This document shows, in pieces, positions 16 to 7,555 of a stretch of DNA of 24,834 nt. Origin of the DNA: a virus. Below the pieces are notes generated by a model. That model had not been told where the DNA came from. It was given only the letters and a program-made list of their open reading frames with translations, and ran no database searches. Positions within the stretch are counted from its first letter, which is position 1. Each line of letters begins with the position of its first letter. The translations under genes and the position numbers were made by a program. The stretch covers positions 1 to 24,834 of IMG/VR virus record IMGVR_UViG_3300005288_000532. One strand, given 5' to 3'.

Positions 16-1227
16 ATGGCATCCAACCCTGCGCCGGCCGCCGCAGCAGCCGCAGCCGTAACCAACGCGATCGCAGGCGCAGACCTCGTCACCGGGACCG
101 ACCCGCGGCTGGCCCGCACGGTCAAGGCCGACGACTACGCCATCCCGTTCGCCGACGCCGGCGGTCGTGTGTCCGGTGGCGTCCGGGCTGACGGGGCGTT
201 CGGGTTTGAGCGTGAGCCCGTCGTCAAGGGAGTCCAGGATGTGACGCTGAAGCAGATCACGGCACCTGGCTGGACGCACGTCATGGCCGACGCCGGCGGC
301 CGCGTCGGGCTCGGCGTCGGCACCGATGGGGTGACACGCATCAGCAAGCTGGAGGTCCTCAACGAAACCTCCAGCCGCACCCGGGTGACGGCCATCGGGG
401 ATTCCCTCACGGCAACGCCCGTCGGAGACTCCTACCCGGACCGCCTCGCAGCGCTCCTGCCGGGCGTGACAGTGACCAACCGCGGCGCCAGCGGCAACAC
501 CGTGGACGAGCTGCGCCTCCGGCTGAACGCCCTCGACCTGTACGTCACGGTCGCCGGCGGGACCATCCCGGCCACGGTCACCCCGGTGTCGCTCACGACC
601 GGGCAGGTCGTGGGCTGGTACACGAACAGCGCCCGGCAGCACAACGGCTACATCGCAGGAGTGCAAGGCGTCATCGATGTCAGCACCACCGGGGCCCTCA
701 CCTTCACCCGAAGCGAGGCGGGGGCGGTGACCGCGGCACCGGGAGTGCAGAAGTTCACCTCATGGTGGCCCGACCACTCCAGTGACACCCTCATCGTCTA
801 CCTCGGCGCGAACGACATCACCGCCAACGTCAAGGGCATGGAAGCGACCGTCGCAGACCACGTTGTGGCGTCTACCGTCGCCATCGTGGAGTGGGCGCGG
901 CCCCGCCGGAAGCAGGTGCTGCTGATGGGGACGATCACCCGCACGGACGAGCCCCGCGGCTCGGCCGGCTACAACACCACTGTCGAGATCAACACCCGGC
1001 TCGCTGCCCTCTACCCAGGCCGGTTCCTCGACATCCGCCGCTACCTGATCGACCAGGCGATCTACGACGCCGGGATAACTCCCACGGCTGATGACCTGGC
1101 GCACATGGCCGACGACACGCTGCCGCCGTCCATCATGCTCGACGCCAGGCACTACACAGGCCCGATCGCCCGCCTGATCGCGGAAAAGAAAGTCGCCCCG
1201 TTCCTCACACAGAAAGGCTGGGTCTAG
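16..1227 (+). CDS. Tail-associated SGNH/GDSL hydrolase
   Basis: The protein (403 aa from this ATG) carries the blocks of an SGNH hydrolase: AIGDSLTA with nucleophile Ser130, NRGASGN around Gly157, YLGAND with Asn266, and DARH with Asp376 and His379. Such domains in phage tail proteins usually deacylate or deacetylate surface glycans; that substrate is inferred. Residues about 171-250 form an insertion between blocks II and III, rich in beta-type sequence. The N-terminal region contains two copies of a short motif, ADAGGRV-x(3)GV-x(2)DG (residues 46-60 and 91-105), typical of phage tail linkers. The frame is open to the left window edge, so the true start may lie upstream and this ATG may be internal. 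It directly precedes another tail-like gene and the lysis genes. Confidence 0.85.
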   Translation: MASNPAPAAAAAAAVTNAIAGADLVTGTDPRLARTVKADDYAIPFADAGGRVSGGVRADGAFGFEREPVVKGVQDVTLKQITAPGWTHVMADAGGRVGLGVGTDGVTRISKLEVLNETSSRTRVTAIGDSLTATPVGDSYPDRLAALLPGVTVTNRGASGNTVDELRLRLNALDLYVTVAGGTIPATVTPVSLTTGQVVGWYTNSARQHNGYIAGVQGVIDVSTTGALTFTRSEAGAVTAAPGVQKFTSWWPDHSSDTLIVYLGANDITANVKGMEATVADHVVASTVAIVEWARPRRKQVLLMGTITRTDEPRGSAGYNTTVEINTRLAALYPGRFLDIRRYLIDQAIYDAGITPTADDLAHMADDTLPPSIMLDARHYTGPIARLIAEKKVAPFLTQKGWV

Positions 1228-2371: not shown

Positions 2372-2707
2372 ATGGACTCCACCCAGCAGCTATGGGCCGC
2401 GGTCCTGAGTTCAGCAGGATTCTTCACGTTCCTCGGCATCGTGGCAACCGGCATCGGCAAGCACATCACCGGCACCGCCGGCCGGGAACGCATCCGCAAC
2501 ATGGGCATGAAGGAACAGCGGAACGAGGCCTGGGCAGAGGCCGCCAAATCTGACATCCGCGCCGACCGCGAGGCGCACAACCGGCGACTCACGGAGGAGT
2601 ACGCCTCAGGCCTCCGACGTGACTTGCTCGAGCTCGGCGTTCCCGAGGACAAGCTTCGCGAGTGGCCCACCCTCAAGAAACCCCCACCCGAGAAGGACAC
2701 TCCATGA
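2372..2707 (+). CDS. Small membrane-anchored coiled-coil protein
   Basis: A 111-aa protein with one hydrophobic segment near the N-terminus (about residues 8-27, SSAGFFTFLGIVATGIG) followed by a highly charged helical region (about 30-100) rich in Arg, Glu and Ala. This single-span, charged-tail arrangement is common for small proteins in actinophage lysis cassettes (DUF2746-like in style), but the family is not certain. The stop overlaps the endolysin ATG by four bases (ATGA), placing it in the same translational unit. It may assist lysis. Confidence 0.7.
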   Translation: MDSTQQLWAAVLSSAGFFTFLGIVATGIGKHITGTAGRERIRNMGMKEQRNEAWAEAAKSDIRADREAHNRRLTEEYASGLRRDLLELGVPEDKLREWPTLKKPPPEKDTP

Positions 2708-3558
2708 TCGACATCGGAACCGCCCTAAGCAACTGGATGCCGCAGGTCCAGGGCCGCTACATCAATGAGGACTGGAACCCGGATAACCAAGGCTTCGGCG
2801 CCCAGTGCTGGGACATCCCGGCGAACTGGTCCCGCTACCTCGGCCTGCCCAAGATCAGCACGGGCGGCGAGGGCCGCTGGCCGGGCTGGGCCGGGAACAT
2901 GGCAGACGCCTTCCCGCAGTCGCCGGAGATCGCCGCGGCGTACGAGCTTCTACCGCCGTCCGCGACAGCGCAGGGCGGGGACATCCTCGTGTGGGACGAC
3001 AGCTACAGCGTGTGGTTCCCGAAGACCCACACCGCCGTCGCCGTCCGGGACCTCGGACCGCAGCTGCTGTGCATCAGCCAGAACAGCACGCCGTCCCGGC
3101 CGGACAACCCATACCCGCAGTGGACCACCGGCCCCACCACCATCCAGCACCTGCCCCGCCGCGGCCTGCTGGGCATCATCCGGCCCCGCACCGGCACCAT
3201 CACCGTGCAGAGCACCACCGAACAAGGAGACATCTTCATGGCACTCTCAGACAAAGAACAGAAGCGGATCCTCGACGCCGCGGACCGGATCAACGGGCGC
3301 GTGCATGACGTCGACGTGCTCAACGCCGCCGACGGCGCCTACATGAACAACACCCGCGACGCCCAGTTCGCCGCGATCATGGACGCCCTTGGGAAGACCC
3401 TGAACAAAGACGACGGCGGCTACATCGTGAAGCTCGTCCAAGCCATCAAGCCTGGCGCCACGGACGCCGCGGCTGTGGCGGACGCGCTGGCCGGCATCAT
3501 CCCCGCCAGCATCGCAAACGAAGTCGCCGACGAACTCGCGAAAAGGCTGGTGAAGTGA
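2704..3558 (+). CDS. Endolysin with N-terminal CHAP domain
   Basis: A 284-aa peptidoglycan hydrolase. Residues about 15-125 form a CHAP (cysteine/histidine-dependent amidohydrolase/peptidase) domain. FGAQCWD supplies the likely nucleophile Cys35, KTHTAVAV supplies His109, and SQN (about 125-127) the polar third residue. GDILVWDD is the conserved strand before the His. CHAP enzymes cut amide bonds in peptidoglycan; whether this one is an amidase or an endopeptidase cannot be told. The C-terminal part (about 180-284) is helical, alanine-rich and probably a wall-binding or oligomerising domain. The ATG at 2704 is chosen because of the ATGA overlap with the previous gene; a longer reading from 2662 is less likely. 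It has no signal peptide, so it relies on a holin. Confidence 0.88.
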   Translation: MIDIGTALSNWMPQVQGRYINEDWNPDNQGFGAQCWDIPANWSRYLGLPKISTGGEGRWPGWAGNMADAFPQSPEIAAAYELLPPSATAQGGDILVWDDSYSVWFPKTHTAVAVRDLGPQLLCISQNSTPSRPDNPYPQWTTGPTTIQHLPRRGLLGIIRPRTGTITVQSTTEQGDIFMALSDKEQKRILDAADRINGRVHDVDVLNAADGAYMNNTRDAQFAAIMDALGKTLNKDDGGYIVKLVQAIKPGATDAAAVADALAGIIPASIANEVADELAKRLVK

Positions 3559-3896
3559 TGCTCCTGACCTCAATCCTCCGGACCCTGGTCCCGTCGCTGT
3601 GGGGCAGCTTCATCACCTGGCTGATCCTGCTCCTGCCCGCACTGGCACCGCTTCAAGAGCAGCTCCTGGGACTGGCCAACGTTCTGCTACCCATCATCAC
3701 CGCGGTCATCGTCGCCGCCTGGTACGCGTTCTGGCGATGGCTGGAACCAAGGCTCCCTGACTGGGTGACGCGTGCTGTCCTCGGATCCTCTAAGACGCCC
3801 GTATACCCCGGTCGGCACGCAGGAGGCAGCCAGGTCCCGAACATCAATCCTGAGCTGCACCCGGCAGCCGACACTGGCGAACAATCACGCGAGTAA
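3558..3896 (+). CDS. Holin-like membrane protein
   Basis: A 112-aa product with two hydrophobic segments (about residues 13-32 and 36-58) and a hydrophilic, proline-containing C-terminal tail. It immediately follows the endolysin (TGATG overlap; an in-frame GTG three bases upstream is an alternative start) and AAAAGG at 3541 could serve as ribosome binding site. Size, two spans, polar tail and position directly after a CHAP endolysin are what is expected of a holin that releases or activates the endolysin at the membrane. It is the last gene of the late operon; a strong terminator follows. Confidence 0.75.
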   Translation: MLLTSILRTLVPSLWGSFITWLILLLPALAPLQEQLLGLANVLLPIITAVIVAAWYAFWRWLEPRLPDWVTRAVLGSSKTPVYPGRHAGGSQVPNINPELHPAADTGEQSRE

Positions 3897-4494: not shown

Positions 4495-4854
4495 GTGGTG
4501 GCATCATTCACGCTCGACGGGGAAACGTACGAGTATCTCCGGCCGGACCCCGGGCACCTTCCGGAGGAAACGCGCTCGTGGGAGTACGGGGCATACCCGA
4601 AGGTCATGGCGAGTGTCCCGCTGGCCGGCGGCCGCACGGTGGACGTGTATGCGGTGGCCGAACGCTGGAACCCCTCTCACGTCCTCGTCGCCTGGGCCGA
4701 CGACGCCGGCCACAAGCACTGGGCATGGGTGCCCGCCGGAAACCTCCGGCGCGTTACTGACTCCGAATGGGACATCGAGGAATACAGGCGCTCTCCCGAA
4801 AAACTACGCCCGATACGCTGGGGCAACCGGCTCCCTGGATTCCTGCCGGCCTGA
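4495..4854 (+). CDS. Hypothetical small phage protein
   Basis: A 119-aa protein of unknown function, acidic and rich in Trp and Tyr, without membrane segments. The GTG start at 4495 is preceded by AAAGGA (4481-4486) at eight bases. Its 5' end lies only 26 bases from the divergent minus-strand ATG at 4468, so its promoter must lie within the other gene's start region or upstream transcription must read in. Codon use matches the phage. The first copy of the 25-bp repeat begins right after its stop. Confidence 0.6.
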   Translation: MVASFTLDGETYEYLRPDPGHLPEETRSWEYGAYPKVMASVPLAGGRTVDVYAVAERWNPSHVLVAWADDAGHKHWAWVPAGNLRRVTDSEWDIEEYRRSPEKLRPIRWGNRLPGFLPA

Positions 4855-4857
4855 ACG

Positions 4858-4882
4858 CCAGGGAGGTTTCAGGGAGAGTCAG
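4858..4882. repeat. 25-bp direct repeat, copy 1 (candidate integrase arm site)
   Basis: Identical at all 25 positions to 5113-5137 (core GGGAGGTTTCAGGGAG). It lies on the lysis side of the tRNA-derived core, about 145 bp away. Perfect direct repeats flanking a core are typical of arm-type binding sites of tyrosine integrases; the role is inferred. Confidence 0.75.
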
Positions 4883-4977
4883 CTCCCGCAGGCGATTTGA
4901 GCGGACTGTAACATTACACGTCTCTACGGAATACTGCCCAAGAACTCTGCGGAACTCGACACGCCCGGAAGGTACGC

Positions 4978-5017
4978 AAAAACCCCGCCAATCCGGGAAT
5001 TATCCGGACTCGCGGGG
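4978..5017 (-). terminator. Minus-strand terminator after the integrase gene
   Basis: Read on the minus strand, CCCCGC (5017-5012) pairs with GCGGGG (4988-4983), enclosing a second hairpin TCCGG/CCGGA (5008-5004 with 4996-4992), followed by TTTTTGCG. It would end the integrase transcript just past the attachment core. Confidence 0.7.
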
Positions 5018-5027
5018 CTGCGTAACT

Positions 5028-5090
5028 TGGTGGGTCCTACCGGGATCGAACCGATGACATCCACGGTGTAAACGTGGGAGTATCCCGCTA
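5028..5090 (-). other. attP core: 3' part of tRNA-Val(TAC)
   Basis: On the minus strand, positions 5077-5028 read as the 3' portion of a tRNA. There is an anticodon stem CCACG/CGTGG around loop TTTACAC (anticodon TAC, Val, at 5070-5068), a T-arm with loop TTCGATC, acceptor strand AGGACCC, discriminator A and encoded CCA (5030-5028). The 5' half does not form a matching acceptor (GGGTCCT would be needed) or a D-stem, although a D-loop-like AGCGGGA is present near 5082-5089. It is therefore a tRNA 3' fragment, as carried by phages that integrate into a tRNA gene and restore its 3' end. It abuts the integrase stop codon. The exact left limit of identity with the host gene cannot be seen here. 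Confidence 0.85.
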
Positions 5091-5092
5091 GA

Positions 5093-6232
5093 TCACGCGG
5101 ACTTTCTGGGGTCCAGGGAGGTTTCAGGGAGAGTCAGGGTGGTGTGGGCGAGGATCAGGGAGTCCATGCGTGCGGCCACGTCCGACAGTTCCTGATCGAA
5201 AAGGCCCGCGTACACGTCGAGGGTGATCTTCGCGGAGGCGTGCCCGAGCATCCGCTGGACCGACTTCACCGAGGCGCCGGAGTGGATCGCCAGGGACGCG
5301 GCGGTGTGCCGGAGGTCGTGGACCCACAGCTCGGCCGGGAGCCCCGCAACGGTCACTGCGGGATCGTAGTCGCGGCGCTTGAAGTTGTTCGACCGCATCA
5401 CCTTCCCCCGCGGCGTCGGGAACACCAGATCATCCCGGGCCTTCCCCTGCAGCCGGGCGCCGAGGCGTTCGGCGATAAAGGCGGTCAGTGGCACGTCGCG
5501 TTCCTTCCCGCCCTTCGGCGGGCCGATGAGCATCCGGCCTTCGACGTCGGTGATGGACCGTGCGACGTGGAGGCGCTGCCGGCGGAGGTGGATGTCCTTT
5601 GTGCGGAGCTCGGCAGCCTCCCCGAAGCGGAGGCCGGTGGTCGCGAGGAACCAGATGAGGTCGCGGTAGTGGGGTTTGATGGCGCCGGCCAGTGCCTCCA
5701 CTTCGGCGATGGTGAGGTAGATGTGCTCCCGTTTGATCCCGGTGGGCAGGTTGACGCCCTTGGCCGGGGTCGCGGTGAGGCGTCCTTCTTCTACGCACCA
5801 GTTAAGGAAGGACCGGAACCGGCCGTAGATGGTGTCGACGGTCCGGGCGGCTTTCGCCATCCCGGACACCCAGGCTTGGACGTCGGCGCGGCGGATGTCG
5901 GCAAGGATCCAGTGGCCCCAGTAGGGGCGGATGGTGGCGCGGACGTCGGACTTGGTTGCGGCGAGCGTGGAGGGCTGGAGTTGGACTTGGGTGGTGACCC
6001 ACTCCTCGAGGAGATCCCGCACGAACACTCGGCCCCGGTCCTGGCTGACGTAGGTCCCGGCCCGCTGGTTGTGCTCCACGTACGCGAGGTGTGCCTTCGC
6101 GGCGTCCTTCACTTCGAAGGACCGCTTCCGCTCTCCCCCGCCCTCGGTCCAGACAGCGCGCCACCGCTTGCCTTTCCCATACTCGGGGGTGCGGGTCCGG
6201 TCCTTCCTCAGCCACCGGTCTTCGACGCGCAT
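5093..6232 (-). CDS. int: Tyrosine-family site-specific integrase
   Basis: A 379-aa integrase for recombination between attP and a host tRNA-Val gene. Residues about 1-65 form an arm-binding-type N-terminal domain (KGKRWRAVW ... FEVKDAAKAHL). Residues 70-160 form the SAM-like core-binding domain, and 172-365 the catalytic domain. Catalytic residues visible: Arg202 (TTGLRFGEA), Lys240 or Lys243 (PPKGGKERDVPL), His305 and Arg308 (HDLRHTAAS), His331 (MLGHASAKIT) and the nucleophile Tyr341 (LDVYAGL). The ATG at 6232 overlaps the stop of the ImmA-like gene (TAATG), so int is probably translated from the immunity transcript. A longer in-frame reading to 6589 overlaps that gene and is rejected. Its 3' end contains repeat copy 2 and abuts the attP core. 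Confidence 0.96.
   Translation of the reverse strand: MRVEDRWLRKDRTRTPEYGKGKRWRAVWTEGGGERKRSFEVKDAAKAHLAYVEHNQRAGTYVSQDRGRVFVRDLLEEWVTTQVQLQPSTLAATKSDVRATIRPYWGHWILADIRRADVQAWVSGMAKAARTVDTIYGRFRSFLNWCVEEGRLTATPAKGVNLPTGIKREHIYLTIAEVEALAGAIKPHYRDLIWFLATTGLRFGEAAELRTKDIHLRRQRLHVARSITDVEGRMLIGPPKGGKERDVPLTAFIAERLGARLQGKARDDLVFPTPRGKVMRSNNFKRRDYDPAVTVAGLPAELWVHDLRHTAASLAIHSGASVKSVQRMLGHASAKITLDVYAGLFDQELSDVAARMDSLILAHTTLTLPETSLDPRKSA
5113..5137. repeat. 25-bp direct repeat, copy 2 (candidate integrase arm site)
   Basis: Perfect copy of 4858-4882, start-to-start distance 255 bp, lying on the integrase side of the attP core and inside the last codons of int. The two copies bracket the tRNA-derived core. 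Confidence 0.75.
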
Positions 6233-6660: not shown

Positions 6661-7095
6661 TTATGATTCCCCGAGAAACCTGTTTTTATAGTTACGGAAT
6701 CGATATGAAATTTCCGCTAGGAGTTCTTCGTCGGTGAGTTGACTTGCCCTTGTTACGGGCTGTTCCGCTGACCCGCTTTCTTCCTTGTCTAGATCCTGCC
6801 AGGACGCCTCTGTCCCGCCCTCCTCCATGGAAGCTAGAGTGACTGATTCCTTAGGGGTGTCAGCTGCGTTGTCGAGCACTTCCTGAATGGACCCGGCCCG
6901 CCATCCAAGGGCCTTTTCTACCTTGCGCTGGTTGGTTTCCCAAGCCACGCGGGTACCCGATTCCATCGTCGCGAGCGTCTTCGTATCCACCCCTGCAAGC
7001 TTGGCGAAGGGTAGCTGTCGGAGGTCGCGTGCAAGGCGGCCTTCTTTGATGAGCCGGCCGATGGTTTCGAGTGCTTCTTGTTCATTCACAAGCAC
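6661..7095 (-). CDS. HTH (XRE-type) immunity repressor candidate
   Basis: A 144-aa protein with an N-terminal Cro/C1-type helix-turn-helix (about residues 12-66; FAKLAGVDTKTLATMESG is the recognition region) and an acidic linker. The C-terminal segment (DEELLAEISYRFRNY, about 117-140) may serve dimerisation. It is on the minus strand, divergent from a Cro-like gene across a 184-bp operator-like region, and upstream of the ImmA-like gene and integrase. This makes it the best candidate for the lysogeny repressor. The start is a GTG at 7095, with a second GTG at 7089; neither has a convincing ribosome binding site. Third-position GC is lower than in the early genes, common for phage repressors. 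Confidence 0.8.
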   Translation of the reverse strand: MLVNEQEALETIGRLIKEGRLARDLRQLPFAKLAGVDTKTLATMESGTRVAWETNQRKVEKALGWRAGSIQEVLDNAADTPKESVTLASMEEGGTEASWQDLDKEESGSAEQPVTRASQLTDEELLAEISYRFRNYKNRFLGES

Positions 7096-7243: not shown

Positions 7244-7272
7244 TTGCTGAGTTCCCTATTGTTCCGTATAGT
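7244..7272 (+). promoter_or_regulatory. Promoter of the Cro-like gene (leaderless)
   Basis: -35 TTGCTG (7244-7249), 17-bp spacer, -10 TATAGT (7267-7272). The predicted start of transcription, about 7 bases on, falls at or next to the ATG at 7280. No ribosome binding site is present, which fits a leaderless mRNA. Confidence 0.7.
7251..7265 (-). promoter_or_regulatory. GGAAC-N5-GGAAC element, immunity region site 2
   Basis: Plus strand reads GTTCC-CTATT-GTTCC. It occupies the spacer between the -35 and -10 boxes of the Cro-like promoter, a classical repressor position. Confidence 0.6.
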
Positions 7273-7279
7273 TCTCGGC

Positions 7280-7555
7280 ATGACCACTCCAAAGAAGCCG
7301 CGGCGGTACATCCCGCGCACACACAGTGACACCAATCCCGCGAAGACCGGCCGGATCATCCGGCAGCTGCGGATCAACAAGGCCATGACGCAGGAAGAGA
7401 TCGCGACGGCCGCCGGCTATAAGCACGCGCACAGCATCTCCCGGATCGAGTCGGGCTCCATGCCAATCCCGGACGCGAAGCTGCTCAAGGTGGCCCGGTA
7501 CCTGGCGATTGATCCGGACAAGATCCGCAAGCCCGCCGTGAAGGTCGCCCGATGA
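7280..7555 (+). CDS. Cro-like HTH (XRE) regulator
   Basis: A 91-aa protein with a basic N-terminal arm (PKKPRRYIPR) and an XRE helix-turn-helix at about residues 24-80 (MTQEEIATAAGYKHAHSISRIESG). It is divergent from the repressor and is the first gene of the rightward early operon, which is the position of Cro. The ATG at 7280 lies seven bases after the -10 box, so translation is probably leaderless. A longer reading from 7244 would include the promoter and is rejected. Its stop overlaps the next ATG (ATGA). Confidence 0.82.
   Translation: MTTPKKPRRYIPRTHSDTNPAKTGRIIRQLRINKAMTQEEIATAAGYKHAHSISRIESGSMPIPDAKLLKVARYLAIDPDKIRKPAVKVAR

Follow-up and report, generated by a model that had tools for sequence, protein, structure and literature searches.

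The tRNA-Val(TAC) fragment on the minus strand of the IMG/VR virus record analysed here (24,834 bases, hereafter the window) is, with a probability that we put at about 0.96, the core of a classical anticodon-loop tRNA attP belonging to a temperate tailed phage that infects Micrococcaceae, the family of Arthrobacter relatives. Attachment sites made of half a tRNA gene, which allow insertion without breaking the host tRNA gene, are a well-known textbook mechanism; what is added here to this familiar type is the host family, the site, the prophages and an apparent scar. Nothing found in the analysis ran counter to the attP reading itself. Read from 5077 to 5028 on the minus strand, the sequence CCACGTTTACACCGTGGATGTCATCGGTTCGATCCCGGTAGGACCCACCA is the 3' part of a tRNA-Val from the anticodon stem to CCA, with anticodon TAC, and passes in order through the anticodon stem-loop CCACG TTTACAC CGTGG, the variable loop, the T arm, the acceptor 3' strand AGGACCC, a single A and CCA. 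As in class I tRNA attP sites, the core corresponds to the 3' part of the host tRNA starting at the anticodon arm, and the cognate tyrosine integrase adjoins it. A preliminary description of this DNA had recognised these tRNA elements and the want of a fitting 5' half, and in agreement with it ARAGORN at default settings called no tRNA anywhere in the window. It had also named a complete tRNA found by covariance model as the result that would speak against its reading; Rfam gave 0 matches at E<=1 over 4500-5600, and so no complete cloverleaf at the window core, whereas the positive controls, two intact host loci (L024, L038), scored 65.2 bits each. The extent of 5028-5103 given there was too wide, since the tRNA half is present but ends at 5077, and 5078-5103 is phage sequence with the integrase stop codon at 5093-5095.

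The search of host genomes that had been proposed as a check was carried out with the 48-mer of positions 5030-5077 against 295 genomes of the family of Paenarthrobacter nitroguajacolicus (Micrococcaceae; genome G004, which holds locus L015). With up to three mismatches it matched in 216 of the 295, and the backwards control gave 0 in every row. ARAGORN found an intact tRNA-Val(tac) at all 20 fetched host loci with an exact core (L021-L040) and likewise at L083; a chance match is excluded because host tRNA-Val(TAC) genes contain the 48-mer without mismatch and the fetched loci are confirmed as such. The 20 fetched loci have the 5' half GGGTCTTTAGCTCAGCTGGTAGAGCG in common, and window and host are identical from the 5' strand of the anticodon stem (CCACG) onward. 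The predicted target, the 3' half of a tRNA-Val(TAC) gene, was therefore found in Micrococcaceae, but the predicted host acceptor strand GGGTCCT was one base off, the 5' acceptor strand being GGGTCTT in the 20 fetched loci. Three further genomes (G101, G080 and G118) have GGGCCTT on the 5' and GGGCCC on the 3' acceptor strand. An uncultivated virus record is in this way tied to the host family Micrococcaceae and to one chromosomal site.

The genes of the window run in the order tail and lysis genes, tRNA half, integrase, early genes (Table 1). The integrase combines an AP2-like N-terminal arm domain (a weak match, AP2 0.0037, below cut-off) with SAM-like core-binding and catalytic domains, and its catalytic residues R, HxxR, H and Y are all in place by motif check and by XerA/XerD alignments. 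On the lysis side, the profile of a tail protein (phrog_52, 4.2e-5) ranks slightly above that of an endolysin for the endolysin-like gene, and the small gene after it could, from its position, encode a holin. To the right of attP lie genes for an HTH regulator, a single-strand binding protein, a methyltransferase, WhiB, a replication protein, a DnaB-like helicase and RusA. As no terminase or capsid match was obtained among the 30 window ORFs scanned, the full genome is probably larger than this record; the contigs of relatives reach 45 kb, and no end repeat was found in the window.

Table 1. Features of the window at and around the attachment site
Feature	Position	Strand	Basis or remark
Tail fibre protein end, GDSL lipase domain, lysis side of attP	16..1227	+	phrog_11419 1.5e-88; PF13472
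Endolysin-like gene, weak profiles, lysis side of attP	2662..3558	+	phrog_8781 endolysin 1.2e-4; CHAP 0.0037, below cut-off; 31% homologue just inside attL of G266
Small gene after endolysin-like gene	3555..3896	+	44% identical homologue beside endolysin-like homologue at G266 attL
Probable arm-type integrase sites, lysis side	4858..4882		same 25-bp sequence as 5113-5137
Probable intrinsic terminator, hairpin and T tract (4978-4982), just after tRNA half	4983..5017	-	sequence; inner part caught by terminator scan
attP common core, tRNA-Val(TAC) 3' part	5028..5077	-	exact 48-mer (5030-5077) in host tRNA-Val(TAC) genes and beside related integrases
Presumed 7-bp overlap, anticodon loop TTTACAC	5066-5072	-	part of core
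Tyrosine integrase, 379 aa from ATG	5093..6232	-	PF00589 1.1e-23; PF14659 8.1e-6; phrog_1 integrase 1e-67
Probable arm-type integrase sites, int side	5113..5137		two CTCCCTG repeats 11 bp apart (minus), inside int 3' end; similar layout in relatives
Putative HTH regulator adjoining int	6661..7095	-	phrog_37057 transcriptional regulator 3.7e-6; HTH_3 0.0022, below cut-off
HTH protein, early region start	7244..7555	+	HTH_3 2.4e-9; phrog_8

The core is flanked by two exact copies of a 25-bp direct repeat, each made of two CAGGGAG units 11 bp apart on the plus strand. The plus strand has five copies of this motif, all within 4859-5162, against 2.6 expected over the whole window; the minus strand has three, including one at 4831, against 2.4 expected. 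Across 13 attP sites, either whole or rebuilt from prophage ends, a shared arm stretch is located 36-51 nt before ACGTTTACAC and 123-167 nt after GGTAGG. The two arms of the same site scored 17.1 on average against 9.7 for mismatched arms, and none of 20,000 permutations, which ignore relatedness, reached the observed sum; the own pair was best in both row and column at 6 of the 13 sites, and the median own score was reached by 10 of 156 mismatched pairs. Related phages have similar arm repeats, and in some relatives the two arms are only moderately alike. Omitted from this count were L005 and L006, in which the contig end cuts the lysis-side arm, the remnant G118 and L012, which has another core; the own-pair score was 8.5 for both G118 and L012, and the int-side arm of G118 fitted G101 better. 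From their sequence and placement, the flanking repeats are probably arm-type sites of the integrase. That they instead bind a recombination directionality factor or a repressor is unlikely. In favour of this alternative, the int-side copy lies inside the int gene; against it, the pairs flank the core at similar distances in the 13 attP sites and in Glutamicibacter phage BIM BV-113, and the geometry fits the arm-type sites of Cluster J mycobacteriophages as given in the available part of their description (PMC3706429).

Prophages with homologous integrases, which the preliminary description had suggested looking for at tRNA-Val(TAC), were found at that locus. A relative of the integrase was present at E<=1e-40 in 48 of the 295 genomes, and 30 loci were fetched. 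Six of the fetched integrases are 58-61% identical to that of the window (G003, G101, G080, G266 and the partial G118 and G033), and five of these six, all except that of G003, adjoin the core; by tblastn, the full-length integrases at the core are 55-57% identical to the window integrase. No Val core occurs in the 1.5-kb flanks of the other fetched integrase loci, including that of G003 (60%; L041), which implies that similar integrases need not use the tRNA-Val site. Two copies of the core on one contig delimit each of three prophages, with starts at 293199 and 328502 in G266 (35.3 kb apart), 172718 and 209859 in G101 (37.1 kb) and 121690 and 174740 in G080 (53 kb), and in all three ARAGORN reports a complete tRNA-Val at the copy far from int. 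The tRNA is thus restored at one end and the core displaced at the other, the class I pattern, of which G118 holds a remnant: a 2.9-kb stretch (G118:C1:471577-474477) between two tRNA-Val cores starting at 471577 and 474431, with a truncated integrase. Contig C123 of G033 also has an attP arrangement, with int end, core, arm repeat and then genes that are phage-like by eye.

Gene order in one of these prophages decides how the window is to be read. G266 has its homologues of the endolysin-like gene and of that gene's small neighbour 0.4-1.7 kb in from the tRNA end, with int at the opposite end (G101 and G080 have int, with no lysis-gene homology to the window). The order in the window is a circular permutation of the G266 prophage, and the window is consequently attP and not attL or attR, as had been proposed from the position of lysis genes on one side and integrase on the other. 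It is very improbable that the window is instead an end of an integrated prophage, or the meeting point of two neighbouring prophages at one tRNA. A metagenome record could be chromosomal, and tandem prophages would give the same junction, but phage genes lie on both sides of the core, the host tRNA 5' half is absent, both arms have the same 25-bp repeat as expected of one attP, and the same junction recurs in other records. The attL or attR of a single prophage is ruled out by the gene order. The suggestion that the genome is non-integrated holds for the assembled sequence, which may come from virions, excised circles or tandem lysogens.

A further host locus looks like an attL scar, the end of a lost prophage that was close to the phage of the window. 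In G263 (L038, G263:C1:2420848-2420895, minus strand) the sequence after the tRNA-Val can be aligned with the phage arm, 161 of 229 columns beyond the core being identical (score 155.5), whereas the same comparison in five other hosts gave 120-128 identical of 250-257 columns and scores of 55.0-65.5. The clear likeness covers about 180 bp and takes in the terminator and the repeat CTCCCTGAAACCTCCCTGG. We read this stretch as a scar because a search of about 59 kb downstream of the tRNA yielded no integrase and only a weak match to the single-strand-binding protein; G263 is also not among the genomes with an integrase match at E<=1e-40.

The same core also recurs in IMG/VR records. Among 11 IMG/VR relatives of the window integrase, with identities of 35-84%, the core is present in seven (L003-L009). 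The exact Val-core 21-mer is absent from the fetched stretches of L010 to L015. Eleven IMG/VR stretches contain the 41-mer core exactly, each with an integrase homologue nearby, at a distance of 70 bases or less in nine and of 612 (L106) and 652 (L099) bases in the others. The attR sequence of the G266 prophage recurs in one of them, L100; the remaining stretches combine an unvarying core with flanks that differ on both sides. L003 and L099 resemble the window in that the core separates int from an endolysin homologue. An additional 600-650 bp or so stands between int and core in L007 (5722-6332) and L099 (2114-2764), and the extra stretch of L099 appears by eye to be HNH endonuclease-like.

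With its threshold lowered (-ps70), ARAGORN does draw a 77-nt tRNA-Val(tac) at the window core, with a mispaired acceptor and a D stem of two pairs, in an output that also contains an unrelated spurious tRNA, and at default settings it calls a tRNA-Val over the attP site of L006 (7130-7200; L103 is the same contig). Rfam at E<=0.1 found no tRNA at the attP loci L103 and L075, so that the call over L006/L103 is likely a false tRNA annotation of the kind that may enter phage records. These drawings are what can be said for a complete, functional phage tRNA-Val(TAC) serving translation or tRNA-dependent lysogeny, the least credible of the readings considered, because neither default ARAGORN in the window nor Rfam supports it, the 5' flank is variable among relatives and holds the int stop in the window while the 3' part is constant, and a 48-bp core that rebuilds the host tRNA leaves no need for a complementing one. 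The window does resemble Fionnbharth, a phage with tRNA-dependent lysogeny, in having a tyrosine integrase, an attB in a host tRNA and putative arm-type sites, but in that type, according to the accessible portion of the report, a core of about 10 bp breaks the tRNA and a replacement is carried (PMC10865867), whereas the 48-50 bp core of the window rebuilds it. tRNA-dependent lysogeny is ruled out by this long core. According to the same portion of that report, the sequence common to attP and attB is typically 30-45 bp long for mycobacteriophage tyrosine integrases and includes the tRNA 3' half, a pattern which the window core fits (PMC10865867).

Taking the window as attP, we propose that the N-terminal domain of a lambda-type tyrosine integrase binds the paired arm repeats, and that its core-binding and catalytic domains bind the anticodon-stem inverted repeat CCACG/CGTGG. 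Strands would then be exchanged between the 7-bp anticodon loops of attP and of the host tRNA-Val(TAC) gene, joining the host 5' half to the phage 3' half, so that the tRNA would be restored at attL and followed by the phage's own terminator, and the displaced host 3' half would come to adjoin int at attR. A directionality factor would presumably be needed. In the G080 prophage the bases before TTTACAC are GACG in attR and CACG in attL, which indicates that exchange there took place 3' of the differing base. The terminator scan caught only the inner part of the hairpin after the tRNA half (4998-4983, minus strand), and by eye both relatives and host tRNA genes have a similar hairpin after the core. 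The two ends of the G266 prophage remain identical across the terminator, apart from a single mismatch beyond the tRNA. The hairpin would likely terminate both the int transcript and the restored tRNA, which would in this way keep a terminator.

The nearest named phage by integrase is Glutamicibacter phage BIM BV-113 (MZ955870.1; host Glutamicibacter halophytocola), at 46% identity. Like the window it has a tRNA-Val(TAC) 3' core, at which its record opens (95.9% identical over 49 of 50 query bases), and repeats flank this core, 36/47 nt away toward the anticodon and 138-171 nt away in the opposite direction. Unlike that of the window, its int is found on the CCA side and is oriented toward the core (L115:1-260), and the repeat motif is ACGTAAG/GCGTAAG. 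The two viewed stretches of the record have no annotated attP feature. The flank GATCTAGCGGGA, which precedes the core in the window (5078-5102, minus strand), is also found at the end of the BIM BV-113 record, where it adjoins the core if the record is circular, and may belong to a core-type site. A search with 11-base words matched the core in 4 of 50,697 phage records, BIM BV-113 and three that are weaker, partial or unrelated (a Bacteriophage sp., Synechococcus phage S-B68 and the tRNA-Ala of Xanthomonas phage X1). When the 50-bp core was run by megablast, which needs an exact 28-base word, no phage record matched. In a literature search that covered titles, the beginnings of abstracts and few subscription papers, we found no description of a tRNA-Val attP in Micrococcaceae phages or of the BIM BV-113 genome.

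Better characterised systems share the same architecture. In the Cluster J mycobacteriophages (Omega and others), whose integration was tested with a plasmid, the available part of the report describes a 44-bp core downstream of a tyrosine integrase, with its left end in the tRNA anticodon loop and with paired 10-bp imperfect direct repeats on both sides as putative arm sites (PMC3706429). These features are like those of the window, but the attP is at tRNA-Leu and the host and repeat sequence are different. Mycobacteriophage L5, of class I, exchanges strands in the 7-bp tRNA anticodon loop, as proposed here; its tRNA is tRNA-Gly, and the crossover is reported for L5 in the part of the source that we could consult (PMC1762012), whereas for the window we infer it.

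One relative points to how such sites may change. The integrase of L012 (640-2100) is 77% identical to that of the window in the N-terminal stretch, 18% in the core-binding domain and 41% in the catalytic domain, and the adjoining core is the 3' part of tRNA-Met(CAT), of which 37 bases match exactly in 7 of 8 host genomes, with tRNA-Met called by ARAGORN at all seven host loci. By eye the layout of terminator and CTCCCT-type repeats looks kept in L012, whereas the automatic arm score gave no such signal. Putative attB sites in tRNA-Met genes are mentioned for Arthrobacter phage Galaxy in the accessible text of its description (PMC5513430). L012 is possibly a natural target swap. We offer tentatively, at somewhat less than even odds, the idea that the attachment module evolves in parts, with arm repeats and integrase N-terminus as one unit, and tRNA core and core-binding and catalytic domains as another. 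If true, phages of this group change site by natural swap of the integrase core half together with a piece of tRNA. A group of attP sites with one tRNA core and diverging arm repeats would be useful for studying the evolution of arm and core specificity, and a single-copy integration vector for Arthrobacter-type bacteria might be built from the integrase-attP pair.

Two minor observations concern L014. About 1.5 kb past its integrase, L014 contains a piece resembling a tRNA 3' half with CCA (L014:8550-8640), which is possibly the att core of that integrase. The record that contains L014 and L041 (NZ_JADHDY010000002.1) is labelled Sporosarcina beigongshangi. Sporosarcina is a genus of Bacillota, whereas the assembly to which the record belongs, G003, falls in the same family group as Paenarthrobacter and is probably mislabelled.
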